Positions 51,197 through 56,429 of a stretch of 64,000 nucleotides of DNA are shown piece by piece. A program made the translations under genes and the position numbers. The notes beneath the pieces are model-generated. The model was not told the origin of the DNA and searched no databases. It was given only the letters and a program-made list of their open reading frames with translations. Numbering within the stretch: the stretch's first letter is position 1; each line of letters starts with the position of its first letter. The stretch is from Deltaproteobacteria bacterium Ga0077550 (GTDB taxonomy: Bacteria; Myxococcota_A; Polyangia; Nannocystales; Nannocystaceae): positions 62,001 to 126,000 of the forward strand of contig LNFB01000210.1 in NCBI GenBank assembly GCA_001464385.1, given 5' to 3'.

Positions 51197-52909
51197 TCAG
51201 ATCTTCTTGCGCGGCCGCGGCAGGCCGTACGCGTCGAGCCGCTTGATCAGCGTCCGCCGGGCGATGCCGAGGAGCTTGGCGGCCTCGGTCTGGTTGCCCT
51301 GCACCCGGTCGAGCGCGGCGATGATGCGGGTGCGCTCGGCCTCCTGGAAGTGCTCGCGGACCTCTCGCAGCGGCGGCAGGGGCTCGGCCGGCGGCAGCGA
51401 CCGCTCCTGGCTCGGCGTCGCGAAGGTCGCGGTGAGCTTCTCGGCCGGGAGGTGCGCGGGCGTGATCTCGTCGCCGTCGCACAGCAACACCGCGCGACGC
51501 ACCGTGTTGCGGAGCTCGCGGACGTTGCCCGGCCACGGGTAGCCGTACAGCAGCGCGAGGGCATCGCGGCTCAACATCGGGGTCTCGGCGCGGCCGGCGA
51601 AGCGCACGGCCTCGGCGACGAAGCGCTCGCACAGCGGCTCGATCTCCGCGGGTCGACGGCGCAGCGGCGGTACGGTGAGCGTGATGCCGTCGAGCCGGAA
51701 GTAGAGGTCCTCGCGGAACTCGCCGTCGGCGACGGCGGCCTCGATGTCGCGGTTGGTGATGGCGACGATCCGGAGGTCCAGCGAGGCATCGTTGGCGTCG
51801 AGCAGCCCGACCAGACGCGCCTGGACGTCGAGCCCGAGGGCGCAGACCTCGTCGAGCAGCACCGTGCCGCCGCGGCTGGCGACCAACGCCCCCTCGGTGC
51901 CGTCACCGCCGAACAGCACCGTCGCCGCGCGATCGGCCGGCAGCGCGGCGCAGTCGATCCGGCGCATCGGGCGATCGGCGCGGCCGCTGCGGCGGTGGAG
52001 CTCCTCGGCGAGCACCTCCTTGCCGACGCCGGTCTCGCCGACGACGAGCACGTGGATCCGCGACGGGGCGATGCGCTCGGCGAGGCGGTACAGCTCGCGC
52101 GTGCTGGCGTCGGCGATGACCGGCCCTGCGTCGCCGTCGTCGTCGTCCTCGATCTCGCCGTCGACCGCCCGCGAGGCCGCCCGGGTGACGAGCTCGTCGC
52201 ACGTCGTACCATCGATGGGATACGCCGCCGCGGCCACCCGCACGCGCACGCGATCGTCGGCGAGCCCGGCGACCAGCCGCTTGACCACGGCGTCCGCCTG
52301 GGCCTCGTCGGCCCCGATCAGCAGGACCTGGTACTCGCCCGGGACGTAGCGCGCGACGACGTCGAGGTCGGGCAGCAGCGCCACGAGCCTGCGCTCCACC
52401 ACGGCTGCGGCGGTCTTGGGCTGGCAGACGATGTGGACCAGGGCGAAGCTGCCGGGGTGCCGCGAGCACCGGCGACACTCCTCCTCGATGCGCGCCTCGA
52501 GGTAGTCGTAGTTCCACAGCCGCCGCGAGCCCGACTCGACCACGCGCTCGAGGACCATCAGCGTGGTCGAGCCGATGCGGATCGGATCGCCGGGCAGCAG
52601 CGTGGTCACCGAGCGCGGCTCGAGCTTGCGATCGCCGACCCAGCTCCCGTTGGAGCTGCCGAGATCCTCGAGCGACAGGGCCTCGGCGACGTGGAGCACG
52701 AGGTGGTGCCGCGAGATCTCCGGATCGTCGATCGGTACGAGGTTCTCGCTCGAGCGCCCGATCGTGAGCCGGCCGGTCGCCGCCAGGGGATAGCTGGCGT
52801 GGAAGCCCTCGCCCAGCACCTGCAGCGTGCGCCGCCCGCCAGCCACCCGCCCGCTCCGGGTGCGTCGTACCGTGGCCGGCGGGAGGTCGTCGCGCTGATG
52901 ATCCGTCAC
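51197..52909 (-). CDS. FHA / GGDEF-like / AAA+ enhancer-binding-type regulator lacking GAFTGA
   Basis: 570 residues from GTG 52909; TATCGT at 52923-52918 ends 8 nt before it. Domains: FHA (about 28-120, with GRSSEN, SRHH, NGSW) for phospho-Thr binding. A middle domain (133-248) looks like a GGDEF fold whose signature is degenerate (RYVPGEYQVLL). The AAA+ domain (about 262-490) has Walker A GETGVGKE (291-298), Walker B TVLLDEV (349-355) and the FREDLYFRLD segment. The C-terminal Fis-type HTH is in NQTEAAKLLGIARRTLIKRL. The loop that should read GAFTGA is missing: LFGGDGTEGALVASRGGT is shorter. It therefore probably does not contact sigma54 normally. The kinases at 52966-56429 are likely upstream partners. 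Confidence 0.9.
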   Translation of the reverse strand: MTDHQRDDLPPATVRRTRSGRVAGGRRTLQVLGEGFHASYPLAATGRLTIGRSSENLVPIDDPEISRHHLVLHVAEALSLEDLGSSNGSWVGDRKLEPRSVTTLLPGDPIRIGSTTLMVLERVVESGSRRLWNYDYLEARIEEECRRCSRHPGSFALVHIVCQPKTAAAVVERRLVALLPDLDVVARYVPGEYQVLLIGADEAQADAVVKRLVAGLADDRVRVRVAAAAYPIDGTTCDELVTRAASRAVDGEIEDDDDGDAGPVIADASTRELYRLAERIAPSRIHVLVVGETGVGKEVLAEELHRRSGRADRPMRRIDCAALPADRAATVLFGGDGTEGALVASRGGTVLLDEVCALGLDVQARLVGLLDANDASLDLRIVAITNRDIEAAVADGEFREDLYFRLDGITLTVPPLRRRPAEIEPLCERFVAEAVRFAGRAETPMLSRDALALLYGYPWPGNVRELRNTVRRAVLLCDGDEITPAHLPAEKLTATFATPSQERSLPPAEPLPPLREVREHFQEAERTRIIAALDRVQGNQTEAAKLLGIARRTLIKRLDAYGLPRPRKKI

Positions 52910-52965
52910 CAGCCTCGACGATAGCGCACGGGCTGCGCCTTGGGGGAGCCTCGGGCGTCCACGCC

Positions 52966-54816: not shown

Positions 54817-56429
54817 GCGTGCTCTCCAGGCGTCCGGGACAGGGCGCGGTAGAGGAGGACGGCCTCGCGGCCGGGCCCGAGATCGAGGAGCACGGCCCAG
54901 CTCGCCAGGCGCGAGGGCAGCGCGAGGACGACCCCCTGCAAGGTGAAGCAGCTCGAGCTGCCGTCGTAGCTGCCGAGGTGCACCGCGACGCGCTCCAGCG
55001 TGCTGCGCGACGGGGCGATGAGCTCGACCTCGGCGTCGCGCTCGAGATCGACGCCGCTCGACGCCCGGCCGCCGTCGCGCACGACGAAGCAATTGAGGCC
55101 CTTGATGTGGACGTGGGCGCCGAGCTGGCGCGGGGTCACGCGGAAGCGAGCCGGGCTCGCGACGATCCCGGCGTCGGCCCCCATCACCAGCTCGTCGGCG
55201 ACCGCCACCGGTCGCACGCGGCGCCCACCGACGACGAGGTCACCGCTGCGGAGGTTCTCGACGGTCAGCACGGGGAGCGGCTGCGGCAGCTGCATCGACG
55301 GCGACGAGGCGGACGCCGAGCTCGGCATCGGGACGGCGTGGACCACCGGCGCCGTCGAGCGGACCGGCGCGTGGCCGTTGGCGAAGGTCGCGACCGAGTC
55401 GCCCTCGGCCATGGCCGACGCGGTGGCGACGGGCGGCGGCGCGACACCGGGGGCGACCGGCGGCCGCTGGGCCGGGGGCACGTAGCGCGCCTGCTTCGAC
55501 GTCACGTTGCGCCACGACTCGTGCACGCACTCGCGCAGCGACTCGATGAGCTGCTCGATCGTCTGCATCCGCTCGGTCGCGTCGGCGCGGCAGGCGTAGG
55601 CCAGGACCTTCTGCAGATCGTCGCCGAGGCCGTGCTCCGCCATGGTCTTGCGGATGTAGGCGTCGCCCAGCCGGCGCAGCTCGAACAGCTGCAGGATGTC
55701 ATCGCCCGGGTAGACCATCTTGCACGTGAGCATGAAGGCCGCGGTGAGCGCCATCGCGAAGACGTCCGCCGACGGGCCCACGGTCTCGCCCCGGAGCTGC
55801 TCGGGCGCGGCCCAGCCCAGGGAGTAGAGCCCGACCTTGTCGTTGCTGTTGAGCGTGTCGTCGGCCCGGTTCGGGAAGGCCTCCTCGAGGGCCTTGGCGA
55901 TGCTGAAGTCGGCGAGCTTCACCACCAACGACGGCCCGGCCCGCGAGAACAGGATGTTCGAGGGCTTGATGTCCCGATGGATGATCCCCGCGGCGTGGGC
56001 CTCGCGGAGCGCGCCGGCGATCGGCTCGAGGATCTCGAACGCCTCCTGCGGGGTCAGCGGCCCGTGCTTGCGCACGAACTCCTTGAGCGTGCCCCCGTCG
56101 GCGTACTCGACCACGAAGAACGGCGTGGCGAGCTCGTCCTCGAGGTAGCCGAAATCGAAGATCCGGATGGTGTTGGGGTGGCGCAGGGCCGACAGCGCGA
56201 AGGCCTCCTGCACGAAGTGCTCGTGGATCGTGCGGTACCCGGGGCGCGACGGATCGAGCCCGCAGAACACCTTGACGCACACGACGCGGCGCAGGCGCTC
56301 GTCCTCGCCGCGGTAGACCACGCTCATGCCGCCGCGCGCGATCTTCTCCTCGATGAGGTAGCGGTCCATGATCCGCTGCCCGACCAGCTCGGTCGACACG
56401 ATGGCGCGGCCTGGTCGTACGTCACCCAC
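54813..56429 (-). CDS. Ser/Thr protein kinase-like protein with DFS in place of DFG and C-terminal beta domain
   Basis: 538 residues from GTG 56429; ATG 56369 (MDRYLIEEK) is an alternative nearer the kinase domain. Motifs: IARGGMSVVYRG loop, Lys in VCVKVF (53), HRDIKPSN (151-158), LADFSIAK with Ser for Gly (174-176), and APEQ. The kinase domain ends near 300, followed by a Pro/Ala/Ser linker and a C-terminal beta-rich domain of about 160 residues (VLTVENLRSGDLVVGG to LLYRALS) that may be a ligand or phosphopeptide module. No membrane helix. Coupled by GTGA to the DFN kinase downstream, so the two are made together. Confidence 0.9.
   Translation of the reverse strand: MGDVRPGRAIVSTELVGQRIMDRYLIEEKIARGGMSVVYRGEDERLRRVVCVKVFCGLDPSRPGYRTIHEHFVQEAFALSALRHPNTIRIFDFGYLEDELATPFFVVEYADGGTLKEFVRKHGPLTPQEAFEILEPIAGALREAHAAGIIHRDIKPSNILFSRAGPSLVVKLADFSIAKALEEAFPNRADDTLNSNDKVGLYSLGWAAPEQLRGETVGPSADVFAMALTAAFMLTCKMVYPGDDILQLFELRRLGDAYIRKTMAEHGLGDDLQKVLAYACRADATERMQTIEQLIESLRECVHESWRNVTSKQARYVPPAQRPPVAPGVAPPPVATASAMAEGDSVATFANGHAPVRSTAPVVHAVPMPSSASASSPSMQLPQPLPVLTVENLRSGDLVVGGRRVRPVAVADELVMGADAGIVASPARFRVTPRQLGAHVHIKGLNCFVVRDGGRASSGVDLERDAEVELIAPSRSTLERVAVHLGSYDGSSSCFTLQGVVLALPSRLASWAVLLDLGPGREAVLLYRALSRTPGEHA

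Follow-up and report, generated by a model that had tools for sequence, protein, structure and literature searches.

We find that two adjoining Ser/Thr kinase genes, here called K1 and K2, form by sequence comparison a conserved unit, an old two-gene module of myxobacteria. REG, a regulator gene lying behind them, encodes a maintained protein that very probably has no action on sigma54, and the three-gene arrangement is a local, unproven one, in one genus. In the window, the whole 64,000-nucleotide stretch of DNA that was analysed, the genes are co-directional and transcribed from the minus strand in the order K1, K2, REG:

54813..56399, minus strand: K1, Hanks-type Ser/Thr kinase with DFS (Pfam Pkinase, 8.5e-35)
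52966..54816, minus strand: K2, divergent Ser/Thr kinase with invariant DFN (Pfam Pkinase, 2.1e-20)
54813..54816, minus strand: GTGA overlap of K1 stop and K2 start, 4 bp
51197..52909, minus strand: REG, with FHA domain, degenerate GGDEF-like middle, AAA+ domain of the bEBP type and Fis-type HTH (Pfam)

The original prediction had the coordinates, strand and motifs of these genes all correct. Of its interpretation, the loss of GAFTGA from REG, the DFN of K2 and the coupling of the kinases are supported, while the joint alteration of both kinases, their reading as pseudokinases and the three-gene switch are not. The start of K1 is more likely the GTG at 56399, which puts DFS at residues 164-166; from the alternative GTG at 56429 it falls at 174-176. 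K2 also starts with GTG and carries DFN at residues 302-304.

K2 is present in all four genomes of the genus, in one other genome of the family and in further GTDB metagenome-assembled genomes (MAGs). A K2 profile search gave matches in 24 of the 144 class genomes, belonging to five families. In a sample of 141 genomes from across the phylum, every match fell within the class; beyond Myxococcota, the search consisted of one insensitive short-pattern scan of GTDB contigs. Among the 26 K2 copies, K1 lies directly upstream at every locus with enough contig. The 4-bp overlap recurs in five loci (the window, G028, G026, G027 and L022), and in four others the nearest K2 start lies 8-47 bp past the K1 stop. 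The small intergenic distance is conserved; the genes flanking the pair vary between families. The earlier claim that K1 and K2 are a coupled pair is borne out by the GTGA overlap and by K1 adjoining K2 across loci. One genome (G068) has two divergent K1-K2 pairs on separate contigs (L190 and L193). A further gene of the window was considered as part of the module and rejected, as it is not found near K1-K2 at other loci:

58841-60619, minus strand: AAA ATPase (PF00004, 6e-5), with no NCBIfam or PADLOC match

The association of REG with the pair is far more restricted. REG directly follows K2 at two of the 26 loci, those of the window (56-bp gap) and of G026 (24 bp), and in G028 a TPR-type gene sits between K2 and REG. 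REG was not found at the remaining 23 loci, of which two break off shortly past K2. The congener G027 has K1-K2 and lacks REG, its best genome-wide match covering the AAA+ part alone, and its genes downstream of the pair match those beyond REG in G028 and G026. A REG paralogue in G026 has no K1/K2-like neighbour.

These distributions bear on the earlier proposal of a compact switch from phospho-Thr to promoter, in which K1 and K2 would phosphorylate REG or one another, and REG would dock on the phosphorylated kinase through its FHA domain and then act on a promoter. In its favour are the tight co-directional spacing in the window and G026, with no terminator-like site found in the 56-bp gap of the window, and the conservation of the FHA ligand-binding residues Arg52, Ser66 and Asn87 across three REG orthologues. 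Furthermore, FHA-bEBPs adjoin kinases in the related genomes L147 and L148, and in G136, a genome of another family, an FHA-bEBP that retains GAFTGA is encoded some 2 kb upstream of K1 (L192 3553-4929, reverse-complement coordinates). We nevertheless regard the switch as doubtful: REG was not found at 23 loci and is missing from G027 despite syntenic flanks, an additional gene intervenes in G028, and the genome of the window holds 71 FHA domains and more than 150 kinases, the two kinds also standing side by side elsewhere. Because adjacency of REG is rare and both FHA domains and kinases are abundant, the link between the kinases and REG may be incidental. A lack of co-conservation of the three genes had been named at the outset as counting against the switch, and this is what is seen in part, with REG at or near the pair at 3 of 26 loci. 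That phosphorylation by K1 or K2 feeds the FHA domain of REG is plausible, on the strength of gene position in at most three genomes. As a separate observation, an opposite-strand radical-SAM-like reading frame lies between the FHA-bEBP and K1-K2 in G136.

Both kinases have the make-up of Hanks-type enzymes. The beta3 Lys, alphaC Glu, HRD Asp and Asn, DFx Asp and APE are kept in 23 of 23 K1 and 26 of 26 K2 copies, which extends to the whole set the earlier reading that HRD and the beta3 Lys are retained. K2 is filed as a kinase variant because the usual DFG glycine is replaced by Asn, invariably so (26/26). More specifically, K1 consists of a catalytic domain of about 290 aa, a disordered linker and a conserved, beta-rich C-terminal domain (54816-55292, minus strand; pLDDT mostly 70-89) for which no Pfam match was found. 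The K1 model is nearest to PknB (Z 29.3, rmsd 2.4, 262 aligned residues), the fold-search list having taken in the kinase part only, and this domain resembles PknB-type Hanks kinases. Neither K1 nor K2 has the PASTA domain of PknB, K1 instead carrying its own C-terminal beta domain. K2 departs further from PknB by its DFN and by a conserved insert: about 78 residues separate APE from the alphaF Asp, where K1 has 10. The insert was read as 78 residues in the 12 copies matching a strict pattern. The N-terminal tail of K2 is Pro-rich. By profile, K2 matches PknB at about 1e-10, and its invariant Thr318 (26/26 copies) is aligned to the SVT segment in the activation loop of PknB; the structure model of K2 is poor (pLDDT 44), and no weight was given to the Foldseek matches it produced (E over 0.006).

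The two DFG changes differ in age. K1 reads DFG in 18 of 23 copies and DFS in the other five, which form one clade (support 100/98) and need a single change. Since DFG copies of K1 stand beside a DFN K2, DFN is old and DFS a single later change; on the sequences compared, the two are not one joint event. The original prediction held that alteration of both kinases was no chance matter. This survives as far as chance is concerned: of 79 kinases of the same genome with a readable DFx, 75 have DFG, 2 DLG and 1 DWG, and K1 is the sole one with an altered Gly, although the sample consists mostly of higher-scoring kinases and K2 falls outside the model used. Chance as a source of the Gly changes was therefore rejected and the fixed DFN of K2 upheld, while joint adaptation fails on the 18 DFG copies of K1. 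Likewise, orthologues with DFG at the same locus, named earlier as evidence against the idea, exist for K1 and not for K2. Sequencing error or decay behind the motif changes was rejected as well, given that they are common to independent genomes and that dN/dS against G028 is low. Our literature search found nothing on point on an altered DFG glycine.

Pseudokinases are defined by loss of the beta3 Lys, the HRD Asp or the DFG Asp (PMC12599244). K1 and K2 fall outside this definition because all three residues are kept, and the suggestion that they are pseudokinase partners finds no support in the 26 K2 and 23 K1 copies. The bacterial pseudokinase families ActPs1-3, DLHK, GLW, DYD and CP1 share with K1 and K2 the family-specific changes of catalytic motifs but differ in these three residues, which K1 and K2 keep. 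A related reading makes K2, together with K1 in the DFS clade, an allosteric partner of a pseudokinase-like kind: the altered DFx would lock the activation segment, and one kinase would scaffold or activate the other. The invariance of DFN, the obligate pairing of K2 with a canonical kinase and the large insert after APE, which could be a binding surface, would all fit. We consider it unlikely, however, in view of the invariant Lys, alphaC Glu, HRD Asp, Asn, DFx Asp and APE, the invariant activation-loop Thr and the published definition (PMC12599244).

Pfam assigns to REG an FHA domain, Sigma54_activat, an AAA lid and HTH_8; the middle region resembles GGDEF weakly (Pfam E 0.041, below the cut-off). 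Walker A and B, sensor 1, the R-fingers and the Fis HTH are present by sequence and Pfam. In REG, Walker A and Walker B are spaced by 59 and no GAFTGA-like motif is present; of the 32 bEBPs parsed from this genome, 30 have such a motif and a spacing of 67-68. Alignment with PDB chains (NifA 9qq6, ZraR 1ojl, NtrC-family 4l4u) places a 9-residue gap at loop 1, the GAFTGA loop, which together with the spacing confirms that GAFTGA is missing. A second 9-residue gap, overlooked in the first reading of the sequence, removes loop 2, which precedes sensor 1, relative to the same chains and to L147-L149. Loops 1 and 2 contact sigma54 and promoter DNA (PMC7175178); REG has neither of these marks of a sigma54-dependent bEBP. 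The genome encodes rpoN, and its GAFTGA-type bEBPs number at least 30. Another of its FHA-AAA bEBPs (L063; G000:C159, about 46050-47400) also lacks GAFTGA (LFGEEGRPGLFED) and keeps loop 2.

Whether the loop deletion is conserved in orthologues had been posed as a check, and the answer is yes: REG of G028 and of G026 carries the same two deletions, and the G026 paralogue shows comparable losses at both loops. Walker, sensor, R-finger and HTH motifs are conserved across the three orthologues. dN/dS against G028 is 0.10-0.20 for K1, K2 and REG, with REG at 0.10; the values obtained against G026 (0.31-0.46) deserve less trust, as the synonymous distance to that genome is low in relation to the protein distance. 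Estimated from these sequences, all three genes are under purifying selection. Because the loss of GAFTGA is real, common to orthologues and not decay, activation of sigma54 by REG is unlikely, in line with the original view that REG acts by another route or is no activator. That REG is a recently disabled bEBP drifting toward loss, as its two deleted loops and narrow distribution might suggest, is highly improbable: in three genomes the reading frame is open and the deletions match, dN/dS against G028 is about 0.10, and the ATPase, FHA and HTH motifs are intact.

Regulators with a comparable loss are known. GAFTGA-less NtrC and VpsR act at sigma70 promoters (PMC10274813), and those of Rhodobacter capsulatus and Caulobacter (NtrC) and of Vibrio cholerae (VpsR) share with REG the bEBP AAA+ core, the C-terminal HTH and the deletion or loss of the loop-1 contact (PMC10274813). 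With its Walker, sensor and R-finger motifs kept, REG shows, as they do, a loop-1 deletion in an otherwise intact bEBP core. It differs from them in that an FHA domain and degenerate GGDEF-like region replace the receiver domain at the N-terminus, and in that loop 2 is lost too. The FHA-type bEBPs of myxobacteria have the same FHA-AAA-HTH order, L147 and L149 being full-length with an alignable middle region, but these relatives (L147-L149) keep both GAFTGA and loop 2. We found no literature on point on GAFTGA with FHA in myxobacteria. By analogy, REG probably acts either as a repressor or at promoters served by another sigma factor.

The explanation we favour, with somewhat better than even confidence and from sequence evidence, is that of two active coupled kinases and a sigma54-independent, phospho-Thr-reading regulator recruited in one genus. 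Translational coupling would ensure that the K1 and K2 proteins are made together, and the two probably form a cascade or act on one another. With the ATP-binding, metal-binding and catalytic residues all kept, catalytic activity is most likely for both. The Gly-to-Asn change would be a fixed trait of the K2 family and the Ser of K1 a late, tolerated change. The K2 activation loop is probably phosphorylated on Thr318, in the same SVT context as in PknB. REG would have been recruited behind the pair in one genus with a phospho-Thr-binding type of FHA domain, an ATPase-type AAA+ core and a Fis HTH, loops 1 and 2 having been lost; it probably works through ATP- or phosphopeptide-dependent oligomerisation, like the GAFTGA-less NtrC and VpsR, and its phospho-Thr input may come from K1 or K2.

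A bolder version, which we offer tentatively, is that K2 may typify a bacterial kinase family not yet described, with the DFG Gly always Asn and a conserved C-lobe insert, and that it works only with its coupled K1, as a two-kinase unit. In one genus this unit would have been wired to an FHA regulator that had lost both sigma54-contact loops, so that a type of sigma54 activator became a regulator that reads phospho-Thr and serves another class of promoters.

A kinase with invariant DFN, always beside a normally DFG kinase, offers a natural way to test the role of the DFG glycine, and the change from DFG to DFS on a single K1 branch gives matched pairs for comparison. The K1-K2 pair also bears on how two bacterial kinases work as one unit. 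REG, for its part, indicates that selection can maintain a bEBP after the loss of both sigma54 loops in a genome with rpoN and many ordinary bEBPs, and bears on the conversion of sigma54 activators into other kinds of regulator.

An assignment to anti-phage defence was rejected: the PADLOC matches of K1 and K2 (PD-T4-6, mad6) are kinase-domain matches, the RtcR match of REG is restricted to the AAA+ and HTH parts, and no defence-system partners were seen. On the opposite strand, a DFG Ser/Thr kinase with TPR repeats (48508-51177, plus strand) is convergent with REG and is preceded by a sigma-factor-like reading frame.
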